From: a virus
Strand: one strand, 5' to 3'
IMG/VR virus record: IMGVR_UViG_3300030419_003547
Span: 1 to 22,502 of that record
DNA: 22,502 nt
The notes beneath the pieces were generated by a model that worked only from the letters and a program-made list of their open reading frames with translations, made no database searches and had not been told where the DNA came from. This document shows positions 3,305 through 22,366 of the stretch, piece after piece (positions within the stretch are counted from its first letter, which is position 1; the number at the start of each line of letters is the position of its first letter). Both the position numbers and the translations under genes were made by a program.

Positions 3305-3844
3305 ATGCTTAGGAATTTTATTGTTATGGCAACATTTTTATTAATGTTCAACGGATTAGTTTGGGATAAACTATTTAAAGGATATCGTGAATATTGGTTA
3401 CAAACCATTGATAGTTTAGAAGATGATAGAGTTAGATTACAATTAAAAATTGATGAATTAGAAAATGGTGTGAAGTTAGAAGGACTTGATGTTGTGGTTA
3501 CAATGTATCACCCAACACGAGGCCAAACAGATTCTACACCAAATATTTTAGCTGACGGAACAAAGATTACAATACACAAAGCATCAGAATATAGATATGT
3601 TGCGGTTAGTAGAAATCTTTTAAAGCGTTGGGGTGGTTGGTTAGACTATGGTGATTTTATTGTTCTAAAAGGAACAGACGGAAAAGACGGAGTTTACCAA
3701 GTTAAAGATACAATGAATAAACGATTTGTAAATCGTATTGATATTTTAGAAAGTCCTGGTGTTAAACAATACAGATTTGACAATGCAAAGATTAAGAAAG
3801 CAAATTTGAACGAAAATTACACATTTATATCAGATGAAAAATAA
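3305..3844 (+). CDS. Membrane-anchored 3D-domain (double-psi beta-barrel) protein
   Basis: The N-terminus is a single hydrophobic segment (about residues 4-20), followed by a charged, probably coiled-coil stretch (about 25-57). The globular part (about 60-155) resembles the '3D' / RlpA-like double-psi beta-barrel. It begins with 'VTMYHPTRGQTDSTPNILADG' and continues with 'VAVSRNLL'. It then shows the conserved aspartates D117 (YGDFIVLKG), D135 (YQVKDTM) and D146 (RIDIL). In bacteria this fold occurs in cell-wall proteins, including the catalytic part of MltA-type lytic transglycosylases. The likely place of action is therefore the periplasmic or outer face, on peptidoglycan. A clear GGAG site precedes the ATG. 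A lysis or wall-remodelling role is inference, and enzymatic activity cannot be confirmed from sequence. Confidence 0.7.
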   Translation: MLRNFIVMATFLLMFNGLVWDKLFKGYREYWLQTIDSLEDDRVRLQLKIDELENGVKLEGLDVVVTMYHPTRGQTDSTPNILADGTKITIHKASEYRYVAVSRNLLKRWGGWLDYGDFIVLKGTDGKDGVYQVKDTMNKRFVNRIDILESPGVKQYRFDNAKIKKANLNENYTFISDEK

Positions 3845-3907: not shown

Positions 3908-5386
3908 ATGGAAACAGGTTATAAACACAAACTATACGGAAGACGAATACTACATATAATGTCGCCAGTCAGGTGGAAAGGTAGTAAGCATATCGTTCAC
4001 GCAGATTCAAACTATAAAGTAATGGCCAAAACTATTAAATGGCTACCTATGTGTCATCACACAATATTAACTCCTGAAAATCATACAATACCAGATTTAG
4101 GAGATAATGTAACATTAGTTCCATTTCCATATGCTCAATCAGTATTATTTAATCGTGGGTTCTTTCACGGAAGACATTTAGTCAAACATACAGATTGGAG
4201 AGCAAAAGATTTTGACTTTGTATTCAATCATCAACCAGAGTTATTATATAATGTTTATAATGCGTTATTAACTGGTAGATATGGTATGACGGTAGATTCA
4301 TTTAACTTTTTCCATTGGGTTGATTGTGCAAAGAGTAGACCAACTGGTGGCTATCCTGTTGGATTTTTCAGACAATTAGAAGCTATTGATTTATCTTATC
4401 GTTCTTACTTCCATTGTCCTGTTAGTTTAGATTATATGAAATCTAATTGGGATAAACATAGTCATACATCAAAAGGTGTTGATGAAAAAGTAATGAAAGA
4501 AAAAATAAATTACTTTCCATTGGGTGTTGGTAATTTACCTGAACCAGAACCATTTCCATTACCAGATAAAAAGATTTTAGTATTTAATCACAGATGGAAC
4601 AACACAACTGGTATAAAAAAATTAATTAAGTTTACAGAAGATTTAGATAGAGATGAGTGGTTAGTTTGGGTAACTGATGATGAAGCTAAAAAACCAAAGG
4701 CAGGTGCACCAGCACCAGATTGGATGATGGTTAAGAACTTACCAAGTGGCGGAAACTATCGTTATCTATTGGACAAATGTTTTGCAAGTTTATGTTTTGT
4801 AGATGATTATATGACTTGGAATTTATCAGTCCAAGATGCAATTAAAGTTGGTAGACCAAGTTTAACTTTTAAACACGATACACACGAGTATGTATTGGGT
4901 AAAGATTATCCTTTATATTTTAAAGATAAAAAATCATTTAAAGAATTATTAGATAATGTATCAGTTGGACAAACATTAGATTGGACTTTACCAGAACACG
5001 ATAAACAATTTGAAGAAAATCTAATTGGTGATTTAATTCACGCTTTAGAAAATAGTAAAAAGAAAACTATTAAGAACACCAAATCTGGTATTGAGTGGTT
5101 ATATCACATTTTACAAGGAAATGGGTATAAGAAAAATCTACTTCACAATTCACACCCTAATTTGTTTTTAAGCAATTCTTGGGAGAAAATTAGACTATGG
5201 TGTTTGAGTAAAGGTGTATTAGATACACCAACAAAAGAATTTACAAAGTTATGGATTCCTGATGAAAAACGAGATGAAATACAGAAACTCGTTGATGAAG
5301 CAGGTGGAGTAACAGAAACGGGTAAAAAATTAGAACACTCGTTAAAAGACCCGACTTTTAATGACAAAGAAAACCAATGGTGGTAA
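3908..5386 (+). CDS. Glycosyltransferase-like protein (GT-B fold)
   Basis: The protein of 492 residues looks like a two-domain GT-B glycosyltransferase. The first domain (about 12-215) opens with a strand-turn 'RILHIMSPVRWKGSKH' and contains 'FDFVFNHQPELLYNV'. The second starts near 222 with 'KILVFNHRWN', a typical beta-strand and glycine/asparagine turn before the sugar-nucleotide site. It continues with 'WLVWVTDD', and with 'LDKCFASLCFVDD' and 'WNLSVQDAIKVGRPSL', where family-1 enzymes hold the donor. A further domain (about 390-470) of unknown type follows. Possible substrates are phage DNA bases, host envelope sugars or virion proteins. Phage DNA glucosyltransferases have the same fold, but the acceptor cannot be told from sequence. 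No Shine-Dalgarno site is obvious before the ATG. Confidence 0.62.
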   Translation: METGYKHKLYGRRILHIMSPVRWKGSKHIVHADSNYKVMAKTIKWLPMCHHTILTPENHTIPDLGDNVTLVPFPYAQSVLFNRGFFHGRHLVKHTDWRAKDFDFVFNHQPELLYNVYNALLTGRYGMTVDSFNFFHWVDCAKSRPTGGYPVGFFRQLEAIDLSYRSYFHCPVSLDYMKSNWDKHSHTSKGVDEKVMKEKINYFPLGVGNLPEPEPFPLPDKKILVFNHRWNNTTGIKKLIKFTEDLDRDEWLVWVTDDEAKKPKAGAPAPDWMMVKNLPSGGNYRYLLDKCFASLCFVDDYMTWNLSVQDAIKVGRPSLTFKHDTHEYVLGKDYPLYFKDKKSFKELLDNVSVGQTLDWTLPEHDKQFEENLIGDLIHALENSKKKTIKNTKSGIEWLYHILQGNGYKKNLLHNSHPNLFLSNSWEKIRLWCLSKGVLDTPTKEFTKLWIPDEKRDEIQKLVDEAGGVTETGKKLEHSLKDPTFNDKENQWW

Positions 5387-6167: not shown

Positions 6168-6439
6168 TAGAAATAGTATTAGGAATTTTTGTAGTAGCGT
6201 GTTTAGTTGAAGGTTATGTTATTTGGAATTTAATGACAAAACAAGAAAAACTTGAAGACTGGACTGAAAGATATATTTTAAAGATTGGTGAAGTTAATAG
6301 AAATATTGACGAGATTGATTACAAAGGATATTTTGAAGTAGATGACGAAGTAGGACAAATATTTAAACAGATAAAAGAAGAAGTAAATTCATTAGAAGAG
6401 TTAACAGAAGAAGGAGCATTAGATGCCAAGAAAAGCTAA
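6164..6439 (+). CDS. Small membrane-anchored protein upstream of the late sigma gene
   Basis: This 91-residue protein has one N-terminal membrane helix (about residues 2-22, IEIVLGIFVVACLVEGYVIW). The following stretch is helical and charged (KQEKLEDWTERYILKIGEV), and a short motif 'YKGYFEVDDEVGQIFKQIKE' follows. Similar small proteins with a 'GxFExDDEVG' motif are familiar from T4-like marine phage genomes next to transcription genes. This comes from memory and I could not check it. It overlaps both neighbours (4 bases with the HD gene, 17 with the sigma gene), so the three are tightly linked in translation. A role in late transcription is possible only by position. Confidence 0.68.
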   Translation: MIEIVLGIFVVACLVEGYVIWNLMTKQEKLEDWTERYILKIGEVNRNIDEIDYKGYFEVDDEVGQIFKQIKEEVNSLEELTEEGALDAKKS

Positions 6440-7151
6440 AAAAGGTTCAGCAAGATATTATTTCACACAAAAAACAGAAGACGCTATTATTCGTTACAAT
6501 AACGAAAAAAGAGCTACAATGAGAAATAGAATCTATAATGACCATATAGCTGCCGCTTTTGACAAGTTAGTTGAAAATATAATTCACACATTTAAATTTT
6601 ATTATTTTGATGTTTCTTCGGAAGAAGTGAAACACGAAGTAGTAAGTTTCTTGGTTATGAATATGCATAAATACACAGAAGGTAAAGGTAAAGCTTTCTC
6701 TTATTTTAGTATTGTAGCAAAAAATTATTTAATTTTACACAATAATAACAATTATAAAAAAATGAAAACACACGATAAAATTGATGTGTTAGATTGGGAT
6801 AGAAGTATTCAAACAGAAATACAACAAAAAGATACAAATAATGCATATAATGAATTTGTAAAACAAATGTTAGAATACTGGGACAATAATATGAATGTAA
6901 TATTTAGACGACAAAAAGATATTCGTGTCGCGGATGCAGTATTACATATTTTTAGAATAAAAGGTAATATAGAAAATTTCAACAAAAAAGCGTTATACAT
7001 CTTAATAAGAGAAATGACACAATCAAACACACAACACATTACAAGAGTTATCAATGTAATGAAGAAATATCAGAGGGGCATTTACAAGGAATTTCAAGTA
7101 AATGGATTCATTGACACAAAGACCACAGGGTCTTTTGTTATCCATAATTAA
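6423..7151 (+). CDS. 55: T4 gp55-like late-transcription sigma factor
   Basis: The protein is a divergent sigma factor of the T4 gp55 type, which binds host RNA polymerase core and recognises late promoters. The N-terminal stretch 'YYFTQKTEDAIIRYNN' (12-27), then 'RNRIYNDHI' and 'KLVENIIHTFKFYYFD', match what I recall of gp55 proteins in cyanophages and related marine phages. The sigma-2-like polymerase-binding and -10-reading part is 'VKHEVVSFLVMNMHKY' plus 'GKGKAFSYFSIVAKNYLI' (69-104). At 242 residues it is longer than T4 gp55 (about 185). I do not see a short clamp-binding tail at the C-terminus. A GGAG site lies 9 bases upstream in the preceding gene. Its last codons form a terminator-like hairpin. 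Confidence in the family is good; function in this phage is inferred. Confidence 0.85.
   Translation: MPRKAKKGSARYYFTQKTEDAIIRYNNEKRATMRNRIYNDHIAAAFDKLVENIIHTFKFYYFDVSSEEVKHEVVSFLVMNMHKYTEGKGKAFSYFSIVAKNYLILHNNNNYKKMKTHDKIDVLDWDRSIQTEIQQKDTNNAYNEFVKQMLEYWDNNMNVIFRRQKDIRVADAVLHIFRIKGNIENFNKKALYILIREMTQSNTQHITRVINVMKKYQRGIYKEFQVNGFIDTKTTGSFVIHN
7118..7137 (+). terminator. Intrinsic terminator inside the 3' end of the sigma gene
   Basis: A perfect 7-bp stem pairs AAAGACC (7118-7124) with GGTCTTT (7129-7135) around an ACAG loop. It continues directly into TCTTTTGTT. The hairpin is coding DNA: it encodes the residues Lys-Thr-Thr-Gly-Ser-Phe just before the sigma stop codon. Stem plus T-run is the normal form of a rho-independent terminator, although the T-run is short and broken by a G. 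Confidence 0.6.
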
Positions 7152-7239
7152 TATATACAATTACTTATTACAGAATTTGAGTTTATTGCTATTACAGAAT
7201 AGACTCAATGTGAGTTCAATAATACGGAGGATATAGACT
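7152..7239 (+). promoter_or_regulatory. Structured leader of the 73-aa membrane protein gene
   Basis: This 88-base gap is the untranslated leader of the next gene. It holds a direct repeat ATTACAGAAT (7167-7176 and 7191-7200). It also has two alternative hairpins that share one arm: TTGAGT (7177-7182) can pair with ACTCAA (7203-7208), or ACTCA (7203-7207) can pair with TGAGT (7211-7215). A strong CGGAGG ribosome site (7225-7230) sits 9 bases before the ATG. No clear -35/-10 pair is visible, so the promoter is not located. Confidence 0.45.
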
Positions 7240-7461
7240 ATGAAAGATATCGTAACAACAATAAAGGGATATGTAAATGATTTAGTTCACTTATCATTAT
7301 CACTTGTTGCATTCGGAGCAGTTGCAGGAATTATATTTCCAGGTGGAATGTTCGGAATTGATGTAATCGGTAATCTGATATCATTAGTTAATATGTTTGG
7401 TGAAGCTGGTTTCGCTGGTTTCATCACATTAGTGATATTGGTCGGTTTATTTCGTAAGTAG
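7240..7461 (+). CDS. Small two-helix membrane protein in its own transcription unit
   Basis: The 73-residue product has a short amphipathic start (MKDIVTTIKGYVNDL). Two hydrophobic helices follow, roughly residues 17-38 and 52-71, joined by a glycine-rich link 'FPGGMFGIDVIGNL'. The C-terminus is 'FRK'. Its size and topology would suit a holin or another membrane-active phage protein, but no family is certain. What is striking is the setting. Terminator-like hairpins lie on both sides, an 88-base structured leader precedes it, and its Shine-Dalgarno site is among the strongest in the window. This suggests a separately controlled, possibly abundant product made apart from both the sigma operon and the tail genes. 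Confidence 0.75.
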   Translation: MKDIVTTIKGYVNDLVHLSLSLVAFGAVAGIIFPGGMFGIDVIGNLISLVNMFGEAGFAGFITLVILVGLFRK

Positions 7462-7476
7462 GAACACGAAATACAT

Positions 7477-7502
7477 AAGCAATAAAATCCTACATATTGC
7501 TT
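7477..7502 (+). other. Stem-loop after the membrane protein gene
   Basis: AAGCAAT (7477-7483) pairs perfectly with ATTGCTT (7496-7502), leaving a 12-base loop. It lies between the stop codon at 7461 and the terminator at 7509-7548. It could protect the 3' end of the messenger or be a processing site. It lacks a T-run, so it is not itself a terminator. Confidence 0.45.
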
Positions 7503-7508
7503 AATTAA

Positions 7509-7548
7509 AAAGGGAGCAAAGTATTAATTTATTTTGTTCCCTTTTTTT
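7509..7548 (+). terminator. Rho-independent terminator, possibly bidirectional
   Basis: AAAGGGAGCAAA (7509-7520) pairs with TTTGTTCCCTTT (7533-7544) with a single G-T wobble, around a 12-base A+T loop. Seven T's follow (7542-7548). On the opposite strand the same stem is followed by TTTTTAATT, so it could stop transcription from either side. It separates the 73-aa membrane protein gene from the tail genes. Confidence 0.85.
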
Positions 7549-7568
7549 GTTTCCATATATTTATAAGT
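7545..7568 (+). promoter_or_regulatory. Candidate late promoter, first strong copy
   Basis: TTTTGTTTCC is followed directly by ATATATTTATAA (ends 7566) and then GT. It begins in the T-run of the terminator and ends 14 bases before the ATG at 7582. The 22 bases 7545-7566 match the copy at 19393-19414 with one difference. On the minus strand the core reads TATAAATA, the T4 late box. Its position at the start of the tail gene block suggests it is a promoter for the late genes. If so, the messenger leader would be only about 10 bases. Confidence 0.6.
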
Positions 7569-7581
7569 AAAGGATTATATT

Positions 7582-7974
7582 ATGTCAAACGATTATGAAA
7601 TATTCAAAGGTAAATCGTTAGCTTCACTCTTTCAAGATATTTACGAAAATCAAAACTACAACAGAAAACAATTAGATGTTTTGACTAAAAATATCACAGC
7701 AATGATAAAAGATGGCGATACAGCAGTTCAAATTGTTCCAATGATTAAAGAATATTTAGAAATTAATGTTCGCAATGATGAATTGTTGGTTAAGTTAGCA
7801 TCTATTGTTCAAAAGATTATATCAGCTGAAGGTAAAGGTGAATCTGAAAGTGAATTTGGTTTATCTGAAAGTGAAAAAGAACAGATACTTAAAACCATAG
7901 TAGAACACGATACTATGGATTTACAAAACGCATCTGATAAAATTACAAAAGAAATAAGTTCTAAAAAAGATTAA
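7582..7974 (+). CDS. Helical hypothetical protein, first gene of the tail block
   Basis: This 130-residue protein is largely alpha-helical and acidic, with no membrane segment. The first part contains 'YEIFKGKSLASLFQDIYENQNYNRKQ'. The middle 'IVPMIKEYLEINVRNDELLVKLASIVQKII' looks like a helical hairpin or coiled coil. A low-complexity linker 'GKGESESEFGLSESEKEQ' follows. I recall related small proteins beside baseplate hub genes in T4-like marine phages, but I know no function for them. It starts 13 bases after the candidate late promoter, behind an AAAGG site, and ends 6 bases before the hub gene. It may be a tail assembly or scaffold factor, by position only. Confidence 0.72.
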   Translation: MSNDYEIFKGKSLASLFQDIYENQNYNRKQLDVLTKNITAMIKDGDTAVQIVPMIKEYLEINVRNDELLVKLASIVQKIISAEGKGESESEFGLSESEKEQILKTIVEHDTMDLQNASDKITKEISSKKD

Positions 7975-9233: not shown

Positions 9234-9671
9234 ATGAAACAAGGTAAATTAGTATCATTAATAAAAGAAGTTGTCAAACAAGAGGTTAAAAAACAGATAA
9301 CCAATATACTTATTAATGAAACAAATATTCCCAAAGTAAAACCAGTAGTTAAGAAGAAAAAAGTTAAGGAACAGAAGTTTACAGATAATCCAATGCTTAA
9401 CAAAATTCTAAATGAAACTGCAAATAGTCCAAAAGAATTAGAGGAGTATCCAACATTAGGCGGGGGAACTTTTGACTCAAGTCGTATGACTGAAATGTTA
9501 GGATATGGAGCTGGTATGGGAAATGATGAACTTAAACGAGAAGTAGCGGCCGCAAGCACTTTAAAGAGTGGCGGAATAAATCCAGAAGCAGCTCCAGAGC
9601 ATTTAAAAGATGCATTAACACGAGACTATTCTGGTTTGATGAAAGCTATTGATAAGAAAAAAGGTAAGTAA
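9234..9671 (+). CDS. Lysine-rich hypothetical protein in the baseplate operon
   Basis: I do not assign a function. The 145-residue protein starts with an amphipathic helix 'KLVSLIKEVVKQEVKKQI', followed by a very basic linker (KPVVKKKKVKEQK). Then comes a segment ending in 'LTRDYSGLMKAIDKKKGK'. The first part could dock on another helix; the linker looks disordered. It has a good AGGAG site (AGGAGTAAAAATG, identical to that before 19471). Its stop overlaps the gp25 start by one base, which ties it to baseplate assembly. It could be a small baseplate connector or a tail-assembly chaperone, but nothing in the sequence decides this. Confidence 0.7.
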   Translation: MKQGKLVSLIKEVVKQEVKKQITNILINETNIPKVKPVVKKKKVKEQKFTDNPMLNKILNETANSPKELEEYPTLGGGTFDSSRMTEMLGYGAGMGNDELKREVAAASTLKSGGINPEAAPEHLKDALTRDYSGLMKAIDKKKGK

Positions 9672-10084
9672 TGTCGAGTGCAAGAGAAAATGATTTAAAT
9701 CCAGATGTTAGTATTGGTTTAGAGTTACCTTTCGCGAGAAGCAAAACAGGTTTATTTGGTAGAACACAAACAACATTAGAACAAGCAGGACATAATATAA
9801 AAAATTTATTATTAACTGCAAAGGGTGAAAGAGTGATGCAACCTGACTTTGGTTCTGATTTAAGAACTTTATTATTTGAACAATCAGATGAAAATATTAG
9901 TGAAAGAATTAGAGAAAGTATAGATGAAGCTATGTCTACTTGGTTACCTTATATAGACATATCTGATATTGATATTATACAAGACGAAAAAAATTTAAAT
10001 ACTATGAAAGTTAATATAAATTTTTCTTTGAATTACGAACCAGATAGATTTAATACAATAACTTTGGATATTGAAGGAGAATAA
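9671..10084 (+). CDS. 25: Baseplate wedge protein, gp25-like
   Basis: This is a member of the GPW/gp25 family, which forms the inner baseplate wedge of contractile tails and starts sheath polymerisation. The family core is clear: 'LEQAGHNIKNLLLTAKGERVMQPDFGSDLRTLLFEQ' (about 36-71), including the conserved 'GERxMxPxFG' (52-61). The helix 'ISERIRESIDEAMSTWLPYI' and a C-terminal beta hairpin pair follow. At 137 aa the length is normal. About 35 residues precede the core, including 'GLELPFARSKTGLFGRT'. The gene order gp25 then gp6/J is the standard wedge order in contractile systems. It shares one base with the preceding stop and ends 4 bases before gp6, with a GGAGAA site for gp6 in its last codons. 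Confidence 0.92.
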   Translation: MSSARENDLNPDVSIGLELPFARSKTGLFGRTQTTLEQAGHNIKNLLLTAKGERVMQPDFGSDLRTLLFEQSDENISERIRESIDEAMSTWLPYIDISDIDIIQDEKNLNTMKVNINFSLNYEPDRFNTITLDIEGE

Positions 10085-19392: not shown

Positions 19393-19416
19393 TTTTGTTT
19401 TCATATATTTATAATT
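19393..19416 (+). promoter_or_regulatory. Candidate late promoter, second strong copy
   Basis: TTTTGTTTTC followed by ATATATTTATAA (ends 19414) differs from the 7545-7566 copy by one base. It lies in the 90-base gap after the giant tail gene, 56 bases before the next ATG. The gap also holds a weak inverted repeat (AAATTTTG 19390-19397 with CAAAATTT 19443-19450). This would start a new transcript for the fibre-like virion genes. Confidence 0.6.
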
Positions 19417-22353: not shown

Positions 22354-22366
22354 CATATTTATAAGT
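22354..22366 (+). promoter_or_regulatory. Candidate late promoter, third copy
   Basis: CATATTTATAAGT lies in the 41-base gap before the last gene, 14 bases before its ATG, close to the spacing at 7582. It lacks the T-rich upstream block of the two best copies and two bases of the central AT run, but keeps the ATATTTATAAGT core. It is followed by GAGGAG, the ribosome site. Confidence 0.5.

Follow-up and report, generated by a model that had tools for sequence, protein, structure and literature searches.

How a phage might express one small membrane protein apart from its closely packed neighbours is the question raised by the gene at 7240-7461 in the DNA analysed here, a 22.5-kb IMG/VR viral fragment of 22,502 nucleotides (the window; features lie on its plus strand unless stated otherwise). 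The window carries T4-like baseplate genes, among them a member of the gp25 family at 9671-10084. Judged by the large baseplate-wedge protein, its nearest isolates are the Microcystis phage Mel-JY01 (46% identity) and the Flavobacterium phages 'immuto' (37%), and several window proteins have relatives in Bacteroidota phages. Far-T4-like marine phages have been linked to the Bacteroidota (PMC7198788). The gaps between the other window genes are mostly shorter than 31 nt, with exceptions ahead of 19471 (90 nt) and of 3908 (63 nt); the leader of the gene at 7240-7461 measures 88 nt and its trailer 120 nt, in agreement with the 88-base leader and the isolation stressed in a first-pass annotation of this DNA. 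That annotation regarded the gene as a separately controlled monocistronic unit between two terminators, encoding a holin or another membrane protein needed in large amounts at a set time. Our computational analysis points to an autonomous, late-type unit of one gene for a small phage membrane protein, which we consider to be the best explanation of the whole and a probable one.

The gene and its protein family

The open reading frame 7240-7461 ends with UAG and encodes 73 residues, MKDIVTTIKGYVNDLVHLSLSLVAFGAVAGIIFPGGMFGIDVIGNLISLVNMFGEAGFAGFITLVILVGLFRK. It is a real coding gene under purifying selection, with dN/dS values of 0.05-0.30 in every pair tested. Relatives of the protein in IMG/VR numbered 6 in a single-sequence scan and 35 in an alignment scan, and two broader alignment scans confirmed at least 473 and at least 483. 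Among 76 distinct sequences the length is 73 aa in 71 and 74 aa in two; of the remaining three, which are shorter, at least two are cut by the locus end. The C-terminal half is strongly conserved. No significant match to the family was obtained in Pfam or PHROGs, and it is absent from INPHARED phages, GTDB genomes and PDB sequences. As far as sequence searches tell, the protein represents a new gene family that is widespread in uncultivated marine phages.

AlphaFold models predicted a helix at residues 2-32, an amphipathic helix at 42-51 and a helix at 54-71, at middling confidence (pLDDT 72-75, pTM 0.39-0.40). The hydropathy peaks coincide with both predicted membrane helices (2-32 and 54-71), and the two helices mentioned in the first-pass annotation are thus found again in the models. 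The C-terminus is basic, and an N-in/C-in topology is probable. Fold searches with the models in BFVD and PDB returned no significant structural relative.

A conserved slot and in-place inversion

The gene occupies a slot whose left border is the gene 6423-7151 (242 aa) and whose right border is the gene 7582-7974 (130 aa), both fixed by conserved synteny. In all 155 loci containing homologues of both neighbours the 73-aa gene lies between them, co-directional in 49 and antiparallel to both in 106, counts in which some contigs entered in more than one locus. In the tree of the 6423-7151 homologues the co-directional state forms one clade (support 96/93) nested among inverted lineages; hence, the arrangement in the window most likely goes back to one flip of the whole unit. 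Read-through of the flanking operon would not yield a sense transcript of an inverted gene, which therefore requires its own promoter. These sequence comparisons lend strong support to a monocistronic unit under separate control, with a constant slot, a mostly inverted orientation, leader hairpins belonging to the units themselves and a T-tract terminator in nearly all of them. The in-place inversion can be regarded as a natural experiment, which argues for independent expression even ahead of RNA data.

The window itself shows the gene in the same direction as its neighbours, which would suit an ordinary gene on a read-through transcript with incidental hairpins and an incidental gap. However, such an explanation has to cope with a gene that is kept although it is antiparallel to both neighbours in 106 of the 155 loci, and with hairpins that hold their positions despite changed sequence, and we regard it as highly improbable.

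In immuto and Mel-JY01 both neighbours are present and the 73-aa gene is absent, not only between them but also from the rest of the genomes. Moron-type phage cassettes consist of a gene with its own promoter and terminator. The unit resembles them in being autonomous between conserved genes and missing from these two isolates; it differs in that it is not sporadic but common throughout the lineage, in a fixed slot, and flipped rather than moved. A separate observation concerns the recombinant locus L093 (3269-3567), which combines the leader and the 3' element of the window clade with the ORF of the clade L174-L182 (inverted units), with a piece of the end of the replaced gene (NNNKGWIRK) still standing ahead of the old 3' element. 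Read in this way, L093 shows that the ORF itself is exchangeable.

The upstream border

The upstream terminator of the first-pass annotation corresponds to the hairpin AAAGACC-ACAG-GGTCTTT at 7118-7135, which is formed by the last codons of the ORF 6423-7151 and is not part of the unit. Only TGTTATCC follows it, the terminator scan of the window made no call there, and the close relatives L002-L007 read GGTCATTTG at this place, a change of a Ser codon from TCT to TCA that breaks the stem. The candidate was rejected, because it is coding sequence with a stem that is not conserved; for lineages with the inverted unit it would be unusable in any case. The position between two terminators is hence real on the downstream side and is lost on the upstream side of the window, while many inverted relatives possess a terminator-like leader hairpin with a T-tract. 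The same division applies to the conservation of the flanking terminators in relatives, which had been proposed as a check and was found downstream only.

The upstream neighbour had also been assigned to a sigma operon, a label with weak backing. One homologue of the 6423-7151 product gave a marginal match to the PHROG late-sigma profile in one search (E 0.5); a second PHROG search yielded E 0.008 and 12.7 bits, with controls matching in that search as well, and hhalign of the family to T4 gp55 returned 2% probability. The possible resemblance to a T4-type late sigma is therefore very weak, and a sigma identity is not claimed on this PHROG and hhalign support.

Promoter element, leader hairpin and ribosome-binding site

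A candidate promoter element, TACTTATT, lies at 7162-7169 and agrees with TATTTATA at 6 of 8 positions. Relatives have TATTTATA or TATAGTTAT in its place, directly upstream of the leader hairpin. A broad pattern for this promoter-like motif was matched by 91 of 100 leaders, and most of the exceptions carry TATTTATA itself. On the coding strand of distinct co-directional gaps (28 loci) TATTTATA occurred 19 times versus two occurrences of TATAAATA, with about 3 expected by shuffling; here, as for the leader folding scores and the helix lengths below, shuffling kept the base composition and not the dinucleotides. In these gaps TATTTATA is often situated 10-21 nt ahead of the start codon, and its enrichment in related phages includes immuto and Mel-JY01. 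We therefore propose TATTTATA, the reverse complement of T4's TATAAATA, as a candidate late promoter of the lineage, and the unit would have its own promoter, with the element at 7162-7169, and a start site of its own. The TATAAATA of T4-type late promoters was not found at -10 on the coding strand, the element of the window being TACTTATT. In inverted relatives TATAAATA was considered as the promoter of the small gene and rejected; it was reassigned to the divergent neighbour, because the co-directional gaps show the reverse-complement motif. Elsewhere in the window, TATTTATA stands on the coding strand in the intergenic gaps at 7558-7565, 19406-19413 and 22356-22363.

The candidate promoter is followed by a 5' leader hairpin, TTGAGTTTATT / AATAGACTCAA, at 7177-7208, an element beyond those of the first-pass annotation. 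Its position is kept in relatives while the stem sequences differ, and it is present in nearly every leader, with a mean folding z of -3.1 over 96 distinct leaders. Many inverted relatives have a T-tract behind this hairpin, by which it resembles a terminator or attenuator; the window clade is without it. In locus L143 (about 4925-5000) and other inverted units, such a terminator-like leader hairpin is located between the promoter element and the start codon and might act as an attenuator. In the clade with TAGTAC tails (L163, L169, L133, L222, L230) GTCGG..CCGAC occurs in the 5' hairpin and TCGGAT in the tail, a possible 5'-3' complementarity.

The Shine-Dalgarno sequence CGGAGG at 7225-7230, called strong in the first-pass annotation, indeed has the second strongest predicted anti-SD pairing (-9.5 kcal/mol) among the 25 window genes. 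In T4, a leader structure of gene e sequesters the SD and prevents early synthesis of the lysis protein, and both gene e and soc are, as the 73-aa unit probably is, small genes with a promoter of their own and a folded mRNA ahead of the start codon (PMC3014915). The unit differs from gene e in that its SD lies outside the stable stem.

The terminator and the RNA fold over the stop codon

The downstream stem-loop and strong terminator of the first-pass annotation are both present. The intrinsic terminator at 7507-7546, with 17 pairs and a subsequent T-tract, is the best-formed one of the window and is shared with relatives, in which 96 of 102 tails have a run of T5. The stem-loop ahead of it (7476-7503) is a covarying hairpin, UAAGCAAUA / UAUUGCUUA, in which 7476-7484 pairs with 7495-7503 and the loop contains UCCUACA. 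A helix of 7-11 bp exists at this place in all 57 distinct tails with TAGG..CCTA, built from 24 distinct stem sequences, while 9.7% of shuffles reach 7 bp. In an alignment of 24 sequences from the main inverted clade, both sides have changed in 7 of 10 pairs (48 such changes in total), and 98.6% of all its cells are paired, which was matched by none of 500 shuffles and approached by no slide.

Two further pairings would connect this hairpin with the end of the ORF, and the resulting fold at 7448-7503 also goes beyond the first-pass annotation. First, UAGGA (7459-7463) is complementary to UCCUA in the loop of the hairpin (7488-7492), so that the two loops may kiss; UAGG, i.e. the stop codon and one base, and CCUA in the loop are invariant in the 57 distinct tails and hence without covariation. 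Second, the last codons of the gene (UUAUUUCG) could pair with CGAAAUA downstream of the stop codon, in the window as UAUUUCGU (7448-7455) with ACGAAAUA (7466-7473), and this pairing would place the stop codon in a loop, AAGUAGGAAC, able to kiss the loop of the second hairpin. In the main clade this stop-codon helix shows one-sided changes only and has a mean length of 8.4 bp versus 5.6 in shuffles; in a sub-clade with the exchange F71I (I71) it has only 5 bp, and in two clades lacking the covarying hairpin it is not clearly above shuffles. As a universal feature across clades it was rejected by shuffle and swap controls. An H-type pseudoknot of the loop pairing and the covarying hairpin alone was also considered and replaced by the kissing hairpins, since these give the conserved CGAAAUA a pairing partner in the end of the ORF. 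The two clades without kissing hairpins keep the gene, thus the hairpins are not essential for it.

A covariance model without the loop-loop helix, searched against 675 kb, gave matches at the stop region of the 73-aa gene and elsewhere only two marginal ones (E 0.04). No Rfam family reached its gathering score for the stop-codon fold, and a literature search, in which subscription journals were thinly covered, found no description of such an RNA element. In locus L143 a tRNA-like match (5307-5350, minus strand) is located directly behind the terminator of the inverted unit; it scored 28.9 bits with Rfam tRNA versus a gathering score of 29 and is cut off by the searched stretch. UAG is the stop codon in 105 of 111 units, whereas TAA is used by 20 of the 25 window genes, a preference that is expected if the stop codon belongs to a helix.

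The take-off hairpin of the T4 gene 60 bypass element contains a UAG, and the present unit likewise has a UAG stop codon inside an mRNA hairpin of a T4-like phage. However, it has neither a conserved downstream frame nor a landing codon, and it possesses in addition a second, kissing hairpin. From clade to clade the tails vary in length and frame, and the 3' length changes by non-multiples of three. Stop-codon read-through or bypass was therefore rejected, because the downstream reading frame is not conserved. With H-type and kissing-loop pseudoknots of cis-regulatory RNAs in Rfam the element shares two hairpins, complementary loops and a covarying helix; it differs from them in enclosing the stop codon and not the ribosome-binding site. 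No stop-codon fold is described for T4 lysis or late genes in the part of the source available to us (PMC3014915), and in this the 73-aa unit differs from them.

The fold overlaps the last codons and the stop codon, and it might chiefly serve as a pause element, which slows the ribosome before termination and hands the short protein over to SRP/Sec as helix 1 exits the tunnel. From general ribosome geometry, unwinding would begin at about codon 66, when some 33 residues, i.e. helix 1, would be out of the tunnel, and the lack of a conserved downstream frame argues against read-through as the alternative. On the other hand, clades without the fold keep the protein, and a plain role in 3' stability or insulation accounts for the same data. 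No publication was found that treats SRP pausing with short membrane proteins. We consider a pausing function unlikely. It concerns the RNA element and is compatible with a holin as well as with a non-lytic protein. Equally unlikely, in our estimation, is the broader notion that such folds around the stop codon constitute a new class of cis-acting RNA, which slows termination for membrane capture and forms a portable unit with its gene in a widespread marine lineage.

Proposed mechanism and role of the protein

The autonomous one-gene unit, our preferred reading, could operate as follows. The promoter element at 7162-7169 would start a short mRNA, the 5' end of which would fold into the hairpin 7177-7208, and the strong SD would drive translation of the 73-residue protein with its two predicted membrane helices. 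At the 3' end, a pair of neighbouring hairpins (7448-7503) would kiss through their loops across the stop codon, with the terminator 7507-7546 immediately behind them. Most likely the transcript owes a long life and its insulation to the RNA folds at its two ends, and such stabilisation may permit the synthesis of much protein from one gene, whatever the neighbours are. Expression of this kind would also permit the flipping of the whole unit in place during evolution. Large amounts at a set time, as suggested in the first-pass annotation, would be in line with this mechanism, and the most likely place and time of action of the protein are the inner membrane of the host and the late phase of infection.

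What the protein does there may be considered in the light of class II holins such as that of the lambdoid phage 21, which have two membrane helices in N-in/C-in topology. The 73-aa protein is like them in its size, two predicted helices, basic tail and presumably isolated late-type expression; it differs by the lack of a significant match to a known holin family, the strongly conserved sequence and length, and the absence of an identified endolysin next to it. Specifically, it could be a holin or antiholin of the class II type, building up in the inner membrane without harm until it triggers lysis, with gene isolation and folded mRNA ends preventing early read-through expression in a similar way as the leader structure of T4 gene e. 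The isolated unit with a promoter-like motif common to other genes is consistent with this role, as is the precedent of T4, where a lysis gene has a structured leader and late promoters (PMC3014915). Matches to two PHROG holin profiles (E 0.035 and 0.095) came from single family members, but they are not significant and Pfam gave none, sequence and length vary unusually little for a holin, and no recognised endolysin stands beside the gene. The holin suggestion of the first-pass annotation hence fits in size, helices and isolation and does not gain a significant profile match, and we hold this specific assignment only tentatively. Two other window genes are mentioned in this regard. The gene 1114-1329 encodes another short hydrophobic protein (71 aa), apparently with two membrane stretches, which is an alternative holin candidate. 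The gene 3305-3844 encodes a 179-aa protein with an N-terminal hydrophobic helix, possibly a cell-wall enzyme; it has distant relatives in Bacteroidota phages, and its C-terminal part is related to hypothetical proteins of Cellulophaga, Tenacibaculum and uncultured gut phages.

The strong SD, the separate unit, the low dN/dS, the near-constant length and the strongly conserved C-terminal half would also suit a non-lytic late membrane protein needed in quantity, for example in membrane remodelling, at the assembly site, in superinfection exclusion or as a virion component. However, there is no homologue of known function, and the sequence favours none of these roles in particular; taken together they are a serious possibility, if one that falls short of an even chance. 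A class-II-holin-like or other lysis-timing role is the leading single guess, plausible and unproven.

Members of the family abound in marine viral contigs, yet the family is missing from Pfam, PHROGs and isolate phage genomes. With its 73-residue product, the uncultivated T4-like lineage offers a directly testable candidate for lysis or membrane takeover. Moreover, the conserved fold over the stop codon makes a contribution to mRNA stability, insulation or the pausing of terminating ribosomes accessible to reporter experiments.
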